Position numbers and translations under genes: made by a program. This document shows, piece after piece, positions 6,946 through 40,160 of a DNA stretch of 64,000 bases (positions are counted from its first letter, which is position 1; each line of letters begins with the position of its first letter). The notes under the pieces were generated by a model, which was not told the origin of the DNA, searched no databases, and was given only the letters and a program-made list of their open reading frames with translations. Where the stretch lies: NCBI GenBank assembly GCA_947034895.1, contig OX344763.1, positions 46,561,025-46,625,024 on the forward strand. Reading direction: 5' to 3'. This DNA is from Rhytidiadelphus loreus (Eukaryota > Streptophyta > Bryopsida > Hypnales > Hylocomiaceae).

Positions 6946-7855
6946 GGGCCTATGCACACCTGCAAAACAATGATATGGCATATCACTGTGTTTAGCAAAA
7001 AAGTCTTGTTCTGTTCACACAGCACAATAAGATTCGGGTTTTTTCGAATTTCCAGACCTGAGTATGGTTTCCAACAGCGTAGTTATAAACTAGGGATTTC
7101 ACATTACATGCATGATGATACTAAACTCTAGCTCTGAGTGACATGTTTGAAAGTTTTAGGGTTTGGTGCTCTTTTGATTGTATTGGATGTGGCTCGTCTT
7201 CAATTGCAGGGTTCAAATTAGTTTTGCATTCTTTGCTTGAGCGGGTTGTGGTTTCTTCCCCAGTTTTAGGGTTTAGATTAGTTTCATTGCTTGAGCGGGT
7301 CTTGGCTTTTTTGCCTTTTAAGGCTGAGTGAACATTAACTGGAAGTTGTAGAAGCAAAGAAATCTACAAGTTGTTCAGGTAGCTAGTTGCGGCAAAGGCT
7401 CTTCAACCGTCAGGCTTCACCAAACTCACAAAGAGCAATTGAGTAGTTCAGGTACACACCCTTGGAAATTCTTGACAGGATGTCATGTTCTATCTGATGT
7501 GGCGATTTGTAGCTTTGTGTTTTGTTGGTTAGGGAATTCCTGTGGTGATACTGTTGACAATGGAAACAGAGCACAGCAATTGGAAGTTGTTCTGAAGACT
7601 ATTACTTCAACCTTGGTTTGCAAATTGCTGTGATTATTAGGGTTCTAAACAAGATTTTTTCTAATGTGTGCACATTGGTGTTGTCGAATGATGTCATTTG
7701 TGATGCAACGGAACTGATATGTTTCATTTTATCCAAGCAGACAGTCAAGCAGTTGTAGTCAAGGCGAACCATCGAAGGAGCCCAAGACGTTTTGATCCTA
7801 CTTGGGTGATAAAATTCCTCTTTGTTCATTTTGTACTCAAATCAAAGTTTTCACA
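6946..7855. other. 5' region of the Harbinger element upstream of the transposase
   Basis: No coding exon is evident between the left terminal inverted repeat and the transposase ATG. The region should hold the transposase promoter and 5'UTR. Open frames on both strands at 7121-7357 are composed of a short local repeat (a TTGCTTGAGCGGGT word occurs twice with TTTTAGGGTTT before each copy) and look non-coding. Confidence 0.4.
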
Positions 7856-9181
7856 ATGTTCACCGAACCTGGAGAAGTAATTGCATTCATTACGGCACTT
7901 ATCGTGCTCTTGCAAAATGTTTCGGTGGAGATGGCAAGGGCTCAGGAGGGCGCAGAAGAACAAGAATTGGCTTATGAAACTGTTGCTCGTGTGCATAGTG
8001 CAATCATGCAAATGCATGAGATTGTATCTTGTGTTCTTCACGATTTCCGCATTGGTAATGCAAGGATGTTGTTGGACGAGGAATTAGGGTTTTGGATCAA
8101 ACCACGATCAACGACTTGGTTTTCAATTTTCTTGTGCACTGAATACGATGATTTGCGGTGGATTCAAAACTTCCGCATGACGAAGAAGGCCATGTTCCAG
8201 TTAGCTACAAGACTTCAGCCGTTCATTCAAAGACAGGATACTAAATTTCGGAAAGCTATTCCAATTAGAGTGAGAACAGCAGCAGCTATTTACAAGCTTG
8301 TTCAAGGAGCTCCTTTGTTGATAGTTTCTGAATTTTTTGCAATTGGCTTGTCGACAGTATCAAAGGTGTTACGAGAAGTTGTAAATGCAATTAATATTGT
8401 GTTCAAAAACGAAATCAGATGGCCAAGTCGTGAGCAAGCAGCTATCAATATGGAAGAATTCAAAGAATGGTGCAGCTTGCCAGGGGTCATTGGTGCAATT
8501 GATGCCACACATTTTAGCATCTCGAAACCGACACGTTTCCCTGAAGACTACTATTATTTTAAGACCAATGGCTACAGTCTCGTTTGCCAAGCTGTTGTGA
8601 GCCGCCAGAAGAAATTCTTGGACATATTTGTTGGCTTACCAGGAAGCTTGAATGATGCCAGGGTTCTTAGAAGATCAGGGCTATTTTCAAAAGTGCAAGA
8701 CAGAAATGGGCTTATTGATGGCCTCCCCATTGGAGAAGAAGGATTTCGACCTTATCTGTTGGGAGACAAGGGATATCCTTTACTTCCTTGGATTTTGACC
8801 CCACACAGAGAAGGTAGATTAACTATACTTGAAGAACTATATAACAGAAAACATAAGCGTGGCAGGAGTGTGGTGGAAAATACGTTTGGAATCTTAAAGC
8901 AGTCATTTCGTGAGCTCGGAAAGAAATCTGAACTCCATGTGACATTCTTACCAGATGTGGTTGTAGCATGTTGCTATCTCCACAATTTGCTACTAGGACA
9001 AGAAACTCATGAAGTTGAACGCCTTCTGGAAACTTTGTGCATTGAAGGAATGGATATTGAGTTCACAGAAGATACAGAATCCCACATTCTACATGAACAA
9101 GAAGACATTCAGTTGCCACAAGCAGAAACAATTCGACAAGATTTGGGGCTATACCTTGGCAGACAACGAAACTTGATTTGA
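7856..9181 (+). CDS. PIF/Harbinger DDE transposase (HARBI1-like nuclease)
   Basis: This is a 441-residue transposase in one exon. It is read from the ATG at 7856 (MFTEPGEV); the frame opens slightly earlier but without an ATG. The N-terminal third is helical and includes a predicted helix-turn-helix-like stretch (TRLQPFIQ..., LIVSEFFAIGLSTVSKVLREV) seen in HARBI1-type proteins. The catalytic core shows the family signatures: AIDATH with Asp216, GSLNDARVLRRS with Asp267, LLGDKGYPLLPW with Asp304, and RSVVENTFGILK with Glu341. All expected acidic residues are present and there is no stop or frameshift, so an active enzyme is plausible. It would cut and join element ends in the nucleus together with the Myb-like partner encoded on the opposite strand. 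Length fits the family. Confidence 0.93.
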   Translation: MFTEPGEVIAFITALIVLLQNVSVEMARAQEGAEEQELAYETVARVHSAIMQMHEIVSCVLHDFRIGNARMLLDEELGFWIKPRSTTWFSIFLCTEYDDLRWIQNFRMTKKAMFQLATRLQPFIQRQDTKFRKAIPIRVRTAAAIYKLVQGAPLLIVSEFFAIGLSTVSKVLREVVNAINIVFKNEIRWPSREQAAINMEEFKEWCSLPGVIGAIDATHFSISKPTRFPEDYYYFKTNGYSLVCQAVVSRQKKFLDIFVGLPGSLNDARVLRRSGLFSKVQDRNGLIDGLPIGEEGFRPYLLGDKGYPLLPWILTPHREGRLTILEELYNRKHKRGRSVVENTFGILKQSFRELGKKSELHVTFLPDVVVACCYLHNLLLGQETHEVERLLETLCIEGMDIEFTEDTESHILHEQEDIQLPQAETIRQDLGLYLGRQRNLI

Positions 9182-9280
9182 TTTACAAAGTAAGTATTGC
9201 ATCCACCAATTTTCTAAAATCGTTTTTCTTTCTAGAAATTTCCTATCAAAAGCAATTAGATGCCATTCTTATCTTTGACA

Positions 9281-11818
9281 TCAGTGATATTCTTTTGCAG
9301 AGAGCAAGTTCTCTGGAGAAGCAATCTCTTCATTGGGGACATCTCCATTTGCAGATACCAAGGTAGCATCCATAGTGCTAGGTGTAGTATGTTGATCAAT
9401 TCTTGTCCATAAAGGATATGCTGGTGTTGCTCCATAGGTAGGTGTAGCCCCATAGTTAGTTGTTGCGTAGGTTGGTGGAGCTTCACGATTAGCAGCTAAG
9501 CCATAGTTTGTAGGACCTCTATAGGGCAGTTGAGGTGGACCACAGGGAGGGTGAGTGTGAAAAGATGGGGGTTGCAGGCTAGCGCTCAATACTTGCGTAA
9601 GGCCAGCAATTGCTTGCACCAAATTCCCTTGGTTGGCATGGGTCAAACGAGCATTTTCTTGAGTGACCAGATCACGCTCTCTGTTGTATTTGAGTTGCTC
9701 ATGAAACATATCCCATTGTAGCTTTGAATCTTTTTCATTCAACTTCTCCAACGTAGTCACAAGCTTCTCTCCTGATGAATTAGTTGCTTCGGCAATCTTA
9801 GAATGGCCTGAAAGTGATTTTCGTCTTTGACCAGTGTTGCCATACTTCCGGGTTATTTCTTGGAGAGATGCTTCAGAAGACGACAACAAGTTTAGAGGAC
9901 CCACAGAGGTGCCAAGAGGACCCACAGAGGTTCCATTTGCATCCAAAAGTGACCCACGCCTCTTTGGTGTAGTATTTAAAGCTGGAGTACCACGCCCATG
10001 TGGAATATTTTGGTCGAAGTTGGTGAAAGTGCTTCCAGGACGAGTAGATTTGTCAAGAGAACTACCGCCTGTACAATTCAAAGAATGAGGTTAGAATGTT
10101 GTTACGATCACTAGATACGATCCAAAATTGCAAGTTTCCGATGAATTCACATAAAACAATCTGGAGCAGGACCTGCTCAAGTGCAACAGTCTAGTTAACT
10201 AATCTTTGTTAATTCGTTTGATTACCAAGGCAGGAGATGAATGTGTGAATCAATGCAAGCATGGGTGAATCCAAACCAGATTGCTTCAAAACGTTTTCAA
10301 AACCATTGACCAAGTTAAAATTTCTCAAGACATGTTGAACTCTGGCATGTTTAACAATGTTGAACTCGATGTTTAACAATGTTGAAAACACTCAACATCA
10401 GGTTAGCAAAGGCGAAGTCTCCATTATGGTGTTTGTAAGAGGTCTACATTATTGTGCATGTTCTTCACGTTCAGAATTTGCAAGCAGGAAAGCCATTCGA
10501 AAAGAGGCACGGAAGTTGAAAACTAGACTGAAAATGCTACTGAAAAGAACATTGTTTACGAGGAGGGGTTTGCTTCTCAAAGCTTCAATCGACTTCGACA
10601 GGGTCAAACGGAACTCTTGTTTACTGTATTCCACGTAAGTATTCTCTACTTGTGGGCTTTTACAACTTGGTGTGTCAATTTAACAAGATTAGCTCTAACA
10701 TTTGACTTATCAAAAGATGCAAATGAGAAACATGGAAAGGGCAATGTTTAATTAGTAGTCTAACGTACCAGCGTAAGGTTGTTGAGCTTGGAGCAAAGCC
10801 TCATCGGAATGATCTGTAAAATCTTCCTCATATTGCAACTCGTTAGGCTTGTAGATACTATCTCCAGGATGACTTAGGTCACGAGTATGCAATGGATTCA
10901 TTATTGGTTTCACGCGATACCACTCATCAATGTTGTCATAATTTTCCTTCAAAAAATTTCGAGGAAGATGGAGTTCAGTGCGTTGCTGAGAACTCATGGT
11001 CCAGTACGAGTTGATGCCACTTGCCTTGTGAGAATCAAAGATTTTTTTATAATCCACTAATAGTGTGCTCCATTTATCTTTGCATGCTGATGAGTCTCGA
11101 TTGCACTCTATTAGTTCACCACAGATCTCCATCACTCTCGCCGAAATTTGGGACCACTGTGTGTTTTCACGCCGCATCAGGTTGGGCTCGTGTTGATTTT
11201 CCAAGTCATCAAAAAATTTCTCACGCTTTGCTTGGATGAGTGCAGAGATTTCAACCTGCGTCCAGTTTGACTGTCGTTCCTTGCGAAGACGCTTGGTAGG
11301 ACAAGCAGGGACTTTTGGATTTTGTGGACCGGACTTTCCTGCAACTGTGGGACCAGATGAAACTTCGCAGGCATTGGGTGGAGCTCTTTTCTTCCCCTTT
11401 AATGCGGCAGATGACCAGGTATGTCGCTCAATCATGCTCCTCTCATTATTCGACAATCCAGCAATGCCTACAGGTGGATTTATGTTTAATAAGCTATAGT
11501 TGTTTCAACATTCCTACAAGACCGCAAGTGCTAGTGAACCGCAAGCAAGCATTTCTTTCTTAATATAGCAAGCGTAAATGGAGGCAATTGTGAGATTTAT
11601 ATAAATTGTAAGTAACTCTTTCTTTGTCTCTCACAATTCTTTCCGTAGCAAGAACTAAACTAACAATTTAGAAATCGATCAGGATGCAATTAAATCAACT
11701 CAACACAATTCTTACTTTCAGTGTCTTCGGAGTTTGTAGAAGTTGCAATTGCAGCTGCAGAAGCATTTGCACAGTTGGTGGCCTTTGCTCCCACCTGTTT
11801 TGTAGCTAAACTTGCCAT
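9281..11818 (-). CDS. Harbinger accessory protein with Myb/SANT (trihelix)-like DNA-binding domain
   Basis: Three exons on the minus strand, 11818-11716, 11467-10769 and 10068-9281, join in phase with GT-AG introns to 529 codons plus stop. The start ATG is the first of the open frame (MASLATKQVG). Residues about 100-180 form a trihelix/Myb-SANT-like module with spaced tryptophans (NWTQVEISALI, TQWSQISARVMEIC, CKDKWSTLLVDYKKIFD). A Lys/Arg-rich patch just before it (TKRLRKERQ) may be a nuclear signal. A coiled-coil-like stretch at about 368-413 (EKLVTTLEKLNEKDSKLQ) could mediate dimers or contact the transposase. The C-terminal third is Pro/Tyr-rich with short repeats (GTSVGPL twice, YGATP twice). 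In known PIF/Harbinger elements such a protein binds near the element ends and brings in the nuclease. The exon joins are inferred by eye. Confidence 0.85.
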
Positions 11819-17954: not shown

Positions 17955-18066
17955 TAGCTTCCGATGAAGCTTGCTGTTCCGTTCGGATCCTGGTTCGGAT
18001 CGACCGATGAAGCTTGCCTGCCTGCTGTTCCGCGCGTTCGGATCCCTGTTCGGATCGATCGATGAA
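17955..18066. repeat. two-unit imperfect tandem duplication
   Basis: The block CGATGAAGCTTGC, then CTGTTCCG, then GTTCGGATC, then GTTCGGATCGA occurs twice in succession (about 17962-18004 and 18005-18064). The second unit is slightly expanded. It sits immediately before the casein kinase I fragment. Confidence 0.65.
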
Positions 18067-18081
18067 ACACTACAGAAGGCG

Positions 18082-18207
18082 GGCACGGCGCGGTACGCGA
18101 GTCGGAATCAGCACTGCGGGATTGATGAGCACTTCCGGCGAGATGACATTGCGTGTCTGAGCTATGCTCTCATGTACTTTCTGCGTGGGAATTTGCCCTG
18201 GCAAGGC
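18082..18207 (+). pseudogene. casein kinase I catalytic-domain fragment
   Basis: About 42 codons encode [11 protein letters not shown], then [16 protein letters not shown], then LRGNLPWQG. This is the highly recognisable CK1 block around kinase subdomains [17 protein letters not shown] and the LxGxLPWQG motif. One residue is inserted between GTARYAS and RRDD relative to the usual spacing. Sequence before and after loses homology at once. The ATP-binding and catalytic-loop regions are absent, so it cannot be an active kinase. It looks like a single captured or leftover exon. The surrounding frame stays open from 17971 to 18336, but the flanking residues are not kinase-like. Confidence 0.75.
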
Positions 18208-18361
18208 CAAAGTGGGCAGCACCCGAACTTGCAAGAGCTCCGTCACTCCGGTTGGGAGAGTTGTGAGGCCCGGTTGACACCGAAAACGAGTAGGCCAGAA
18301 ATTGCAGGAATCTCCTTCTCCAAGTCCCCTTATTAATCCCTTAACCCCTTTAGGATGTTAA

Positions 18362-23165: not shown

Positions 23166-26100
23166 ATGTCCTTGGAAAGCTTGATCAAGATGCAAAGCTT
23201 CGGAACCCGAAGCATCGAGGAGCCCAACACGCCACGCCCGGGAGGGGTGCCGCAAGGCTCCGTGCTCGTGATCTTGGACGTCACCAAGGACGCGGGGTCC
23301 GCGCCCGTGTACTGGGCGCTGGGCAACGTCGCCCGCCGCGGGGACAACATCAAAATCGTCGGCATTGTCACGCATGTCTGCAACCCAAGTACGCATCATT
23401 CCAAATTTCTTATAATTTTGAGCATCATACCGAATTCTTAGCTGGAATGCCACCTTTAGGATCGGCCCGGGGTTTTGAGTTTTGTGAATTTATGGGGGTT
23501 CAGTGGGGTTTAAGACACGCGTGGACAAGAACAGTTGGATCGGCTCCAATGGACTCCTGCTACAACACGAACTCACAATGAAGCGAGCCGCTTTGGACAA
23601 CATTCCTCACGTGAAGGAGTGGTGCGAAAAAGCAGGGGTACGCAAAGTCGACATTCCTCCGCTGCCCGGGTTCAAATATTTTCTCGTGGGTTCACAATGT
23701 TGATAGTCCCCCACACTGCCCGATTGTGAGCTCAAGGACTCATAATGGTGGACTTGCAGGTGAAGCTGGAAATCGATGTGAAGGGCGGGTACGCAACGAA
23801 GTTGATCATCGTCGATGAAGCGAAAGCCATTGGCGCCTACCACGTCGTACTCGACAAGTGAGTCTCTGTTGCAACTGCGCATGTGTTGCTTGATCACTTG
23901 AAGGCAGTTGATTGATTTCGCGTTTTCTGTGATTTTAGGAATATGAAGAGCGATCGGAAGTACTTCATCGAGCACTTGACGTGCTTCGTATCGCGCGCGC
24001 GTCAAAGTGGTGGCGTGGAAACCATCCGCTCCTTCTCCGTGACGAAGCAGCTTCCCCCGCTAGTCCCCACGCCTCCCAACACGCGCATGAACGGCACCAA
24101 CCATAGCATAAGCCTGCCCACGCCTTCTTCCGGCTCCACAGTCTCCATGGCGTCACTAGGATCCAACTTCTCCCACCACGGATCGGCTTCATCGAACTCG
24201 TTCGGAGTGGCCTCCAGCGATGGCTTCCTCACGCAAGACAGCGACGCCTTCTCCGGCGCGCCCACGACGGGGGAGTCTTTCAACGATCGCCACCAGGAGA
24301 TTCAGGAGCTTTCGTTTCGGCCCCCGCGAGGACCACATTCCGAAGCCGGCTCGCTGCGCACGTCGTACTCCGAATCAGGCTCGCAGAAGGGGAACTCCAT
24401 TCCCAGCACGCCACGAGGCCAATCCGAATCGGGGTACAATCTCATCAACCGGAAACCCGCCCTCCGGAAATGGCTTGCGGAAGAGGAAACACGCGGAGAG
24501 GTTCCATCGTCCGAGAATCCCAATCAGAGCTCCTTTGCTGATCGAACCAACAACAATGGCAACAAAATCTCATCAGCAAACGAGCCACAACAAGTTGTCA
24601 AACGTATTAGTCCTCATCTGAGTCCCCTTCTGATTCCTCACATGAGTCCTCATGTTAGTCCGCCCGCGACGCTTGAAAAGCTTGCGAACTTGCCAGCGCC
24701 ATTGCCGCTTCCCCCTTCGCATTCTTCGCATTCTTCGCCAGGGAGGGCGTTTGCATCAGTGAGAACTTTGCCTTCTCCCATTGCGAGAATTTCCCCCCCT
24801 ATCTCGCGCATGCCGTCGCCTCCCTGCAGCAAGCTGTCGCAGAGCTTGCACAAGACCGTGTGGATATGGACACGAAGCAAGGAAGTCATGCGGTCCGCGG
24901 TGGAAGTGGGTTGGACCACTTTCGTCTTCACTCCGGATACGAAGTACATGGCACCGCAATGGACTTGTGAGTGGGCTTGATTGATTCTGTTTTGTCAATA
25001 ATTCGTTTGAATTTACTCGCGGTGGTGTTTGACTGTTTTTCCCATTTGTGCAGCGATCGAGTGGATCAAGCCCTTGTTTCTTGAAGGAGGCCGGTTTTTG
25101 AACCAGGAGAACAAGCCAGTGGCGCTGCTTGGGCAGGTGTACTCGGGGGAGCAGCTGGACTACCTCCCTGCGATGATGGGGGGCACCGATATCGTCGTTA
25201 TCAATGACCTTGACTGGCAGGTATGCAAACTCTCAAATCTTCTTTACATTTTCAAATTTTGAATGGGAACCAGCCTGGGGTGTATGTTCATCACAAGAAA
25301 ATAGTGGAAAAAATCAGAATAGGATCCTATGCATGTTAGATGGGTTCTGAGATGTTAGTCTGTCATGCCCTTGAAGAATCTTTGTTGCTGTTTTCTTTTC
25401 CATTTGTGAGTGAGACTATGACTGATTCTTAATAATTGTCTTCAAATGGAGGGGGCATGAGTCCGAGCTTGTTGGTTCCAAAACTAGAGGCGATCTTATT
25501 CTATAACTCGATTGGGAAAGTATTTTGGAGACGAGATTCTGGGCTCAAGATTTTGGGGGACCAATTTGGAAAGAAATTTCAGTCAAATCTTGCAAGAAGT
25601 CGAAAATTGCAAGCTAATGTTCACTTGGGACGTTCGCTTGTCTAGGTGATTCCACCTGAAGATATTGTTGCGGCTTTTCAAGGCAGGCGAACGCAGCTCT
25701 TCGCCACCGCCAATTCTGCTGCCGACTGTCAAGTTTACTTGGAGGTCAACTATTTCATTCCCCTAATGCCATTCTCTCCTAACTTGATGTTACCAAATTT
25801 CTTGGTTAGGGTTTGCATTGGTTAGCGGCATTGCTTATATGGAGTTTGTGGCTGCAGGCACTTGAAGTAGGGACGGATGGCGTGGTGCTTCACACCGAGA
25901 ATGTTTCCGAAATTATCGCTCTCAGGGTATTCTTCACGCAACCCTGTCCCCTCAAACCCTCGTTTCAGATTGCCCATATCCATTCAAAGACCTAAATTGA
26001 CCTAATGACCTCGTTGTGTAAGCTTATGGATACCCTATCCGTCACTTTCAAACATTTGAACCAAATATGTTCTAATTATGCGCTTTCTTTGGGAGATAAC

Positions 26101-29076
26101 CATGAAGCTCTCTTGGAGAGAGACCTTTGGGTTCTTCTAGAACCAAGCCTGTGGAGATTAAGTTGTTTCATCACTCAACACATAAAGATTTCTTATGAAA
26201 CCATTTAAAGTGGAAGGTACAGGCCCACTATTGAAGGGACAGTAAACCCTATTTTCATTCAAGATAAACATTTAGCTTACACCACCTGCTAATCGAAGGC
26301 CAACGAAGTGTATCAGAAGAGCTGAGTTGCTGTTGGTAACAAGGCTCATTACAGGAGACAGGATCAGATCTTTAAACGTTTTTAGTATCGTCTACCTTAA
26401 TTTGTGATAGTACTCATGTGATGCTTGTTTTGCAACGCAGGACTACCTGACTGCGAAGAAGTGTGAGAAGGCCCTGGCAATGGCGGATCCGCCCATCAAG
26501 GAGGTGGGTGAGCTGAAATTGGTGTTGGTGGAGCCGACCTCCATGGCAAGATCCGAGGCGAACTCAGATCGGGTGGCTTCTTCTCCGAGCTTGCACAGAT
26601 TGGGGTCCTCCCCAAGGTCGGATGCTAATCCCCTCACTCCAAAAGCAGAGGCCAACCCACTCCATAGGATCGGATCGTCTCCGAGGCTGGTAGAGTCGCC
26701 GAGACATTCTGGGCACTTTCAGACACAGCAGGAGTCTTCAGAGCAAGCGTCCAGGCTTGTGAATGCTACTGTGAAAAGTATTGTTTCCGTGGGAGAAGGC
26801 GACCGCGTTTCTGTGGATCTTTGTAATCTGTTGAATCCGGGCGAGGCTTTACTTGTAAGTGACAAGCCCTGATACTCCCTTTTACCACATTTTTTTTGAT
26901 GTTTTTGACCAGCGTTTGCAATGTTCTTCTTGTGATGTAAAATTTGGCCCTCTCTGAAGCTTTTTTTTACAATTTGACTGATGAATTGGTTTGTTTAAAT
27001 TTGTAAATTCTTGATCTTTTGGTGATCAACCCATTGTCAGGGTGCCAAGTTTCTGTGTTCGGAAATTTATGCGGCAGGTTCGTTTTATTAAGCGAAGATG
27101 TGTCCCTTTTGTTTTTAGGTGGGTTCCTTTTCGAAGGGTATGTTTCTGGTGCATTCCGAAGTTCAAGACAACAACACAAGCCGACGTTCATTTCGTGTTA
27201 ATGCTGTGAGTGTAATCCAAAGTTGTTTTTTCTGCTGAAAATCACTCTATACACAACTCGATTGCTTTCAAACCGTTCTTTACACTCCACTTTCCTCTTC
27301 AATCTTGGGAACGAAAGAAAGAACGTCTGTGATTCCTTTTCTTTAATGATTTTATACACGTGACCCTTTCTAATACACACTCTGTAATTCCACATTCCAT
27401 GTATATCCTGAGAGTCTTTCACGATGTCTGTGTATTGGACAACAACTTCTGCGTGTCAAGTTGTGAACACACATGAGGGTGCATTTAGAGAAGAGTGAGT
27501 AAACCAGTAAAGTGCTCCAGATTGGATGGCATTCCATTAAGGTAAACTACCCCATTACGGACAAAATGGGAGCAAGCCCATTGTGGACTGAATTATGATA
27601 GTGGGGTATATTTTAGAACTTGAATGTACACCACCATTACAGTTTTGCCCACAATGGGCTTGCTCCCATTCTGTCGATAATGGGCTAATTTACCTTAGTT
27701 CCATTGATAAATGATGTAAATCTTGACAGGCGCCCTAATTTGGAATTCTGATTCCAGGGTGCTCCACGTAGGTGTCAAAAAGAGTGTCGTGTGGTATCAT
27801 TAAACTGAGTAGTTGTTTTCCTGCAGAAGTTGAGTACTAGTAGACACCTTGATTGAATGGATTGATTGATAGATTGATTGGACATGGCAGGGTCCCGTGC
27901 ATGCATACACTGGCATGGCAGGAGGGCACATCACGTACTTGTCGGAGCTGGAATCAGGTGGTCACGTTTTGGCCGTGGATGCTCATGGGAACCACCGCAC
28001 GGTTCTTGTTGGCCGGGTGTCGATTGAGACGAAGCCCCTCGTCCTTGTGCAAGTCGAGGCTGAGGGCGAAAGTTTTAGCGTCATGCTCCAAGATGCAGAC
28101 TCTGTCCGCCTAGTTGTGCCTGCTGGTGCGTTCATCCAATCCTGTTTGATCCTAATCTGTTGAGATTTAGCATTAATCCAGTATTTAACTTTGTTCTTTT
28201 TTATCCTGGTACATGACATCTGCATTGCTAAACAAAACATACCATGATTAAGGTAGGAGGTCGCAAAACCGAACGAATTTTTGGCTGACAGCGATGACTC
28301 TTAGTTGAATAGGTCTGATTTTTTATCACTTCACGAATTGGTGCTAAACTTTGTTGAAGTCCAATAATCTAAATTGAATTTAATATGCAAAAGTTCTTCA
28401 AGGTTAAAGTGGAATCGGTGAATTTTCTAGAACCATGCTCTGATTTCATTGTCTTTTCTTTGGACATTGTGCATCATGGACCTACTTTTTCTCTGGATTT
28501 ATGAGGGCATGTTTTTAAGAATGCTCTCGGAATTGAGTCGTTCTACCTTAGTTGTGGCATAGGAGAGCAGGTCAACTGTGAGTTATTTAGAGCAAATTCA
28601 TCTCAAAACAGAGGAAAACAAGCCTACTTAATGTTCTGACATACTCTCATATGAACGCAATGGCTCACTGGCTGGAGTACCCTTATGATAACTTAGCTCT
28701 CATTTGTTCAAACTAGGTGTCCTTCTCGTCCAGCTCATTTTAAATCCCGTGTGAGAATTGTACAGTACGATGGATACATGGTCCCACGATTGGTGAAGGA
28801 CCTTGCACGCACTGTGTACATATGTTACACTTGGATGCAATATGAGCTGGCTGTGACTTTTCATCGTGGACTCTTATTCACATTTTGCATGGCAATTCAA
28901 AGGATGACTGCTTTAGAATGTTTTTTAGATGATTTTGTTTCTTACGTGGAAATGACGATTGTGAATCTACAGATAAACAACGTCCAGGTTGTGAAGCCAT
29001 CGCCGTCACAAAGCTGCAGCCAGGAGACACTGTACTCTTGAGCATGGAAGACGACGACTGCTCATGCGAGCAGTAG
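23166..29076 (+). CDS. fusion: UspA-like domain + Ser/Pro-rich linker + type II (AroB'-like) 3-dehydroquinate synthase domain
   Basis: Eleven exons join in phase into 885 codons plus stop: 23166-23388, 23504-23637, 23760-23857, 23939-24966, 25054-25220, 25646-25744, 25858-25926, 26441-26854, 27119-27205, 27891-28125, 28973-29076. All introns are GT-AG. Residues about 32-170 read as the UspA-like alpha/beta fold seen N-terminal to plant USP-type receptor-like kinases (GSVLVILDVTKDAGSAPVYW, ARRGDNIKIVGIV, VKLEIDVKGG, AIGAYHVVLDKN). The GxxG...G(S/T) ATP loop is absent. Residues about 171-456 are a low-complexity Ser/Pro/Asn-rich linker. Residues about 457-885 match the plant homologue of archaeal AroB' (KTVWIWTRSKEV, WQVIPPEDIVAAFQG, GDRVSVDLCNLLNPGEALL, FRVNAGPVHAY, ITYLSELESG). 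The archaeal enzyme converts an amino-deoxy-heptulosonate to 3-dehydroquinate with NAD. The role in plants is not established. Exon 4 encodes the USP end, the linker and the first synthase strand without a break. Confidence 0.85.
24642..24848 (+). other. possible internal start and transit-peptide-like segment within exon 4
   Basis: Met387 of the fusion protein (ATG at 24642) begins about 70 residues rich in Ser, Pro, Ala and Arg and poor in acidic residues (LPLPPSHSSHSSPGRAFASV, RTLPSPIARISPPISR). They lead directly into the synthase domain at residue 457. Such composition resembles a chloroplast transit peptide. An alternative transcript or start here could give a stand-alone plastid-targeted synthase. 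This is inference only. The same sequence serves as linker in the long product. Confidence 0.3.
27539..27698. mobile_element. foldback MITE (160 bp) in intron 9 of the fusion gene, AAGGTAA-ended
   Basis: The arms AAGGTAAACTACCCCATTA and its imperfect complement TAATGGGCTAATTTACCTTA enclose an internal match (TGGGAGCAAGCCCATTGTGG against CCCACAATGGGCTTGCTCCC). A 7-bp direct repeat TTCCATT flanks it (27532-27538, 27699-27705). A relative with the same inner sequence is at about 37509-37700. Confidence 0.7.
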
Positions 29077-39798: not shown

Positions 39799-40160
39799 AT
39801 GGATGTCAACATGGAAGCAATGGAGGAGGAGGGGGGCGGGGAGCATGCAAAGAAAGGGAAGAACTTTTGTGAAGCAGAGGAGAAGCAACTTTGTTTTTCT
39901 TTTTTACACATTTCACAGGATCCAAAGCAAGGGACTGGACAGAAGAGTGGGAATTTTTGGAGACACATCATAGAGCACTACAATGCAAACAAGACTTTTT
40001 CCCATGTGTACTCTCAAGAATGTGTGGACGCTTTGAAACCAAAACTTTTCAATGCACACATCACACTCTTGAGGAACAAGACTTTTTTCCATGTGTACTC
40101 TCAAGATGTGTGGACGCTTTGAAACCAAAACTTTTCAATGCACACATCACACTCTTGAGG
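39799..40160 (+). pseudogene. Harbinger ORF1-type Myb/SANT-like gene remnant
   Basis: From the ATG at 39799 the frame encodes an acidic N-terminus, then KNFCEAEEKQLCFSF, HISQDPKQGTGQ and NFWRHIIEHYNANK. This is the pattern (Trp/Phe-spaced SANT-like helix, then sxDPxxGTxQ, FWxxI, Y) of the Myb-like proteins encoded by plant PIF/Harbinger elements. Downstream, an 87-bp segment is tandemly duplicated and the copies differ by one base, which shifts the frame so translation stops at 40122. The normal continuation of the domain is missing. It belongs to a different lineage from the trihelix-type partner at 9281-11818. Confidence 0.55.
39988..40160. repeat. tandem duplication, 87 + 86 bp
   Basis: Units 39988-40074 and 40075-40160 both run from AACAAGACTTTTT to CACACTCTTGAGG and are nearly identical. 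A one-base length difference (CAAGAATGTG against CAAGATGTG) breaks the reading frame. Confidence 0.85.

Follow-up and report, generated by a model that had tools for sequence, protein, structure and literature searches.

A moss gene joining a USP-like module to a type II 3-dehydroquinate synthase domain that has lost invariant residues

The analysed stretch, hereafter the window, comprises 64,000 nucleotides of the genome of the moss Rhytidiadelphus loreus (contig OX344763.1, positions 46,561,025 to 46,625,024), and the gene considered here lies at 23166-29076 of it and encodes a USP-like domain, a linker and a domain of the type II 3-dehydroquinate synthase family in one protein. The gene has 11 exons, all with GT donors and AG acceptors, that sum to 2658 nt, that is, 885 codons and a stop; in coordinates, phases and length this agrees with the original prediction, made from the letters of the window, of 11 exons joining in phase to 885 codons. 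Exon 4 (23939-24966) is a single open frame encoding residues 152-495, which take in the last part of the USP-like domain, all of the linker and, from the synthase domain, the first strand, and the earlier claim that both domains share one uninterrupted open reading frame is thereby confirmed. The features are given below, where P and L numbers denote related proteins and loci.

23166..23388, + strand: exon 1, start codon and beginning of the USP-like domain; the start of protein P0002 is nearly identical, MSLESLIKMQSS
23504..23637, + strand: exon 2, 134 nt, USP-like domain; equal length in L097 and L098
23760..23857, + strand: exon 3, 98 nt, USP-like domain; equal length in L097 and L098
23939..24966, + strand: exon 4, end of the USP-like domain, complete Ser/Pro-rich linker, start of the synthase domain
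25054..25220, + strand: exon 5, synthase N half
25646..25744, + strand: exon 6, synthase N half
25858..25926, + strand: exon 7, synthase N half
26441..26854, + strand: exon 8, end of the N half, clade A insert, start of the C half
27119..27205, + strand: exon 9, synthase C half
27891..28125, + strand: exon 10, part of the synthase C half; its length of 235 nt is shared by the five modelled genes (window, L097, L098, L099, L100)
28973..29076, + strand: exon 11, end of the C half, shortened tail, stop
23253..24041 (span including introns), + strand: USP-like domain, residues 30-186
24042..24848, + strand: Ser/Thr/Pro-rich linker, residues 187-455
24849..26467 (including introns), + strand: synthase N half, residues 456-615; TIM-barrel-like in the model of an orthologue
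26468..26746, + strand: clade A low-complexity insert inside the synthase domain, residues 616-708 (by alignment)
26747..29043 (including introns), + strand: synthase C half, residues 709-875; intein/HINT-like fold in the model of an orthologue

All ten exon junctions are gapless in the alignment with orthologues of clade A, the group to which the window gene belongs (P0005 is too short for the first three junctions and P0003 for the first), and the paralogue L097 follows the same 11-exon plan, both of which bear out the earlier view of a single gene. Of the fused homologues, P0012, of 706 aa, has a longest contig of 3113 bases and P0013, of 710 aa, a contig of 2671 bases; both are uninterrupted on these short contigs, for which cDNA would be the simplest account, and in that case a single transcript would cover both domains. 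A mis-joined gene pair was rejected because the architecture recurs with the same exon plan, and a pseudogene because the 885 codons are free of stops and both domains are conserved relative to Physcomitrium. A self-search found no second copy of the gene within the window, where neither Rfam, used at gathering thresholds, nor a search for tRNAs gave a match.

The C-terminal domain matches the Pfam family PF01959 with 293.4 bits against a cut-off of 22.2 (2.6e-87), with homology spanning both halves, so that its original identification as a type II (AroB'-like) synthase domain is well founded. Seven NCBIfam models also match, all below their cut-offs (best 232.6 against 485), and the Pfam scan of the whole protein gave DHQS and one sub-threshold hit, with no kinase domain. 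The further description as an aromatic-pathway-type enzyme domain stands as far as homology is concerned, but a plain enzyme domain it is not. Of 60 reference columns that are invariant in one alignment of 14 unfused enzymes (4 from plants, 10 from prokaryotes) the window synthase keeps 47, and the 13 changes (N149D, C232S, G244A, P271S, T290I, K320S, R324K, N344D, E346D, T347S and the tail residues R384, H385 and G387, in the numbering of the unfused Sphagnum protein P0041) include an invariant Lys, an invariant Cys and the C-terminal Arg-His tail; 12 of them fall within the synthase C half or the tail that follows it. In the best 80 of 587 confirmed prokaryotic loci these 13 sites are kept in 80/80, with H385 in 79.

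The losses are graded across the family. In clade A the counts of kept columns are 47 in P0001, 45 in P0002, P0003 and L097, 43 in P0005 (its N-terminus is incomplete) and 51 in Sphagnum P0004; the group B2 keeps 49 to 51, L099 48, Sphagnum P0006/P0007 and L098 54, P0015 57, and the truncated record P0050 28. All 60 are kept in P0010, P0011, P0016, the unfused Sphagnum copies and L100. Among rows outside the column definition, seed plants together with the species-unlabelled P0023 and P0046 keep 55 to 60 (P0051 is without the tail), algae 56 to 58 and prokaryotes 56 to 60. Divergence alone is inadequate to explain the losses, since Rhododendron P0018 differs from the intact P0010 at 139/280 other columns and at 0/60 invariant ones, whereas the window protein, about equally far from P0010 (129/277 other columns), differs at 10 of 57 aligned invariant columns. 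The replacements N149D, P271S, R324K, E346D and T347S are fixed in clade A (6/6 rows), and the invariant Lys site holds S, Q or C across it. Between the window protein and P0001 the identity is 133/160 in the synthase N half, 150/167 in the C half and 36/73 in the 93-residue clade A insert, and it is 130/157 in the USP-like domain; by this comparison both domains remain under constraint. A Foldseek search with the model of an unfused protein gave mixed, mostly weak top rows, and no paper that treats DHQS together with a HINT or intein fold was found in the open-access literature.

The N-terminal module has the alpha/beta fold of USP proteins in its predicted structure, and the earlier assignment of residues 1-170 to the Usp-like class therefore holds for the fold and fails for the Pfam score, as PF00582 gave no match to the window's own domain. 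In siblings this profile matched 6 of 10 full-length proteins (best 21.7 bits against a cut-off of 24) and 5 of 11 isolated domains (best 4.4e-5). The ATP motif G-2X-G-9X-S/T was not matched inside the domain in any of 18 proteins whose first 220 residues were scanned (16 of them carry the USP domain, truncated in two), and matches in P0007, P0015 and P0016 fall outside it; the proposal of a nucleotide-sensing module is thus unsupported. Residues 1-200 as a protein query returned four clade A proteins only. The linker is less conserved (128/237 identical to P0001) and of low confidence in the orthologue's model, and short motifs are preserved in it: DGFLTQDSD, RKWLAEE and SRMPSPP. The motif RKWL[AN]E[ED] (window residues about 323-334) occurs in 6/6 scanned clade A proteins amid variable linker, and P0010 and P0016 carry the similar ARKWLLNDD.

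The search with the whole protein returned 40 homologues, of which 14 have the USP part, with a truncated domain in P0003 and P0015; the named sources of fused proteins are Physcomitrium, Ceratodon and Sphagnum, so the same architecture, for which the original prediction had advised a search of related genomes, is present in three moss genera. The other 26 (among them seed plants, algae and the short moss rows P0005 and P0016) gave no USP-part match at E values up to 10; these searches work through shared words and length, and absence beyond mosses is not implied by them. A further search, in which the USP domain was judged by reading sequences for P0041 and P0050 only, added P0050 as one more fused protein. 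The nearest relative of the window protein is P0001, with 68% identity over 99%. The synthase tree unites all moss rows (support 100/99) and places the window protein within clade A (100/100), which is recovered in the USP tree as well (100/99), and the support in both trees argues for co-inheritance of the two domains. Three trees exclude P0041/P0043, a pair of unfused Sphagnum proteins, from the fused group (93/76, 80/72 and 92/85, with L100 inside the group in the last), and placement of this pair with the group B1 was not rejected (p-AU 0.207). A one-off fusion was rejected, as several paralogues per moss genome make up a gene family. P0016, with 505 aa, looks like a form of Physcomitrium P0010 that starts inside the linker and is devoid of the USP part, and it may be an alternative transcript.

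In the R. loreus genome (407 Mb in 489 contigs searched) the synthase-family loci found are the window gene, L097, L098, L099, L100 and L101. L097 to L100 were modelled under protein guidance, without stops; for all but L097 the first residues are uncertain. L097, a clade A gene of 846 modelled aa and 11 exons, lies 3.2 Mb from the window gene on the same contig and has 8 of 11 exon lengths identical to it (223, 134, 98, 167, 99, 69, 87 and 235). L098 (750 aa modelled) and L099 (713 aa modelled) are also fused. The USP-part exons of 134 and 98 nt are common to the window gene, L097 and L098, and L099 has one exon of 232 nt, their sum, which fits one fusion followed by duplication. L100 is the genome's intact copy and is unfused, with the synthase only; in the roughly 26 kb upstream of it nothing convincing for USP was found (one 26-residue match, E 0.022, in L103). 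An intact copy is thus present in this genome and in each named moss genus. The view of L100 as an ancestral unfused state with a transit peptide is weakened by its grouping with the fused Ceratodon P0011 (90/79) and by a first exon that resembles linker sequence, so that, judged from these comparisons, loss of the USP part is likelier. L101 (G000 C1:87501000-87510900) is an open frame of 730 codons that encodes the USP module, a linker of considerable length and the synthase C half, and in which the N (barrel) half gave no match.

The USP module is not confined to this family. Among nine other loci examined it precedes kinase motifs at L126, L129 and L130, where single exons are 32-45% identical to those of the window's module, and neither kinase nor synthase was found at the remaining six; the earlier statement that plant USP-like domains sit before kinases is therefore borne out in this genome. 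At L127 and L128 (G000 C2) USP exons close to the window's were observed, the identity reaching 64% in exon 1, and no synthase or kinase was found in the fetched stretch, and possibly these are USP-plus-linker genes. In an excerpt of a review (PMC6560075) the partners given for plant USP domains are kinases, U-box, SWIM, HDzip, cation exchanger and IKI3 motifs; a synthase-like domain is not named there.

The ADTH synthase gene is adjacent to the prokaryotic synthase in 4 of 5 loci with neighbours scanned. The monofunctional dehydroquinate synthase of plants is an unrelated plastid enzyme. It is separate and single-copy in all surveyed species but soybean, according to an extract of PMC3608921, and the archaeal type II enzyme acts after ADTH synthase and yields dehydroquinate (PMC4162585, in part). 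The Methanococcus maripaludis homologue is reported to be dispensable for aromatic amino acids.

With 13 invariant sites gone, an insert acquired and a new module at the N-terminus, the simplest reading is that clade A is without this chemistry, and the good conservation of the synthase domain between R. loreus, Physcomitrium and Ceratodon indicates some role. We lean, with somewhat better than even confidence, to the explanation that the 885-residue protein of USP-fold module, linker and altered synthase domain is a pseudoenzyme serving as a stress-linked sensor or regulatory partner, with ligand-dependent or partner-dependent regulation as the favoured role. The altered fold may still bind a ligand or pair with the intact paralogue without turnover, the USP module, drawn from the pool that precedes plant kinases, may supply dimerisation or stress input, and the linkers would be disordered and carry binding or phosphorylation motifs. 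The pseudoenzyme PDX1.2 supplies such input to its active partner. A cytosolic location is suggested because the USP module starts about 30 residues in, which leaves little room for the usual plastid transit peptide. A broader version, possible though rather doubtful, is that mosses made the archaeal-type aromatic enzyme into a USP-coupled signalling family, where after one fusion clade A, B2 and L101 lost catalysis separately and the dead fold reads metabolite or stress state and signals to the intact paralogue or to USP-kinases.

Several observations weigh against the pseudoenzyme explanation. The USP assignment is weak from sequence alone, given the missing Pfam hit for the window domain, and when profiles were compared, nine prokaryotic USPs (E 0.056) did no better than a control (0.04). 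Linker SP/TP sites are not enriched over composition, as 482 of 2000 shuffles reach the count. That fusion was accompanied by loss of invariant residues had to be rejected, since the fused P0010 and P0011 keep 60/60. R324K, E346D, T347S and N344D are mild replacements, the changes at R384, H385 and G387 rest on gappy alignment (gaps in one alignment; C, S and a gap in another), and the prokaryotic loci were gathered by the patterns RPFRVNAGP or GxGDRVCVD, a source of bias at sites C232 and P271. Finally, we know of no type II synthase active site derived from structure, and the sequence search found no PDB relative, so that invariant need not equal catalytic.

An active enzyme with changed chemistry has to be considered, where clade A acts on a new substrate or no longer carries out the NAD-dependent deamination and is regulated by the USP module. 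The clade A replacements shared by Physcomitrium, Ceratodon, Sphagnum and the window protein suit new as well as lost function, and the wider family offers a precedent in the GriH/BagC-type relatives, which make 3-amino-4-hydroxybenzoic acid (3,4-AHBA; PMC6692506, in part). This enzyme explanation is nevertheless unlikely, if still a serious candidate, because the invariant Lys and the tail are altered and because other invariant sites or an entire half have gone in the B2 paralogues and L101, a pattern that resembles relaxed catalytic constraint. An ordinary aromatic-pathway synthase that the USP tag merely regulates or anchors is improbable for the window copy with its 13 lost sites, the more so as plants already have the monofunctional enzyme (an extract of PMC3608921); it has the strong family match on its side and may hold for P0010 and P0011, given their intact columns.

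The module could also be a passive remnant from domain shuffling that involved kinases, the synthase-derived part alone being of importance. Its spread in the genome, before kinase motifs at three of nine loci and without kinase or synthase at six, speaks for this, as does the intact L100, nested among fused genes and preceded by about 26 kb in which no USP match is convincing; however, the USP identity between the window protein and P0001 roughly equals that of the synthase halves and L101, without the synthase N half, retains the module, for which reasons we give this account little credence. Two adjacent genes merged by a wrong gene model are scarcely credible: such joins seem to occur in plant annotation, with P0021, P0025 and P0028 as presumed examples, but here the junction lies inside one open exon, and the same arrangement is found again in three named moss genera and, with matching exon lengths, at several loci of the same genome. 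In these three angiosperm records an aldose 1-epimerase and a synthase stand in one predicted protein, probably as conserved neighbours joined by annotation; the two genes are named together among hazel S-locus candidates in an excerpt of PMC8921776.

Elsewhere in the window, positions 7796-11504 hold a transposase frame (DDE_Tnp_4, 6.1e-29) on the + strand and a Myb/SANT-like frame (6.4e-9) on the - strand, which we take to be an element of the PIF/Harbinger type. A casein kinase I-like exon fragment (PDB 3sv0, E 3.1e-14) lies at 17968-18333 (+ strand), and at 39988-40160 an 86-base unit is present in two head-to-tail copies with 97% matches, partly within an open frame of 111 codons.

The sequences themselves are already in databases and hence are not new, and the fused moss proteins bear there the names "uncharacterized", "hypothetical", "unnamed" or "3-dehydroquinate synthase", with no precomputed Pfam label on the USP part. 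No text that pairs USP and type II synthase domains was found in the open-access literature, in accordance with the earlier statement that no description of the two together was known. Nor did this literature yield a paper on AT3G28760 or an assigned job for plant type II synthase homologues, one of which lies among the candidate S-locus genes of hazel (PMC8921776, in part). As the transformable Physcomitrium has intact and altered copies, the role of the plant homologues is directly testable.

Among known systems, the type II 3-dehydroquinate synthase (MJ1249/OE1475F type, PF01959) is homologous over both halves, and all 60 reference columns are intact in the Sphagnum copies that lack the fusion, in L100 and in several copies from seed plants, whereas the window protein keeps 47 and has the 93-residue low-complexity insert, the shortened tail and the USP module in front. 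The Streptomyces 3,4-AHBA synthases (GriH, BagC and FevH) belong to the same family, and the NCBIfam model BagC_FevH matches the window protein (1.3e-38), yet with 132.8 bits it stays far below the cut-off of 750; to our knowledge these synthases have no USP domain. The same architecture as in the window is found in uncharacterised proteins of Physcomitrium (P0001, P0002 and P0010), Ceratodon (P0009 and P0011) and Sphagnum (P0004 and P0006). Plant USP-domain kinases share the USP module and differ in its partner, which in the window protein is synthase-like with no kinase, so that the USP module of plant kinases is used here with a metabolic-enzyme fold.
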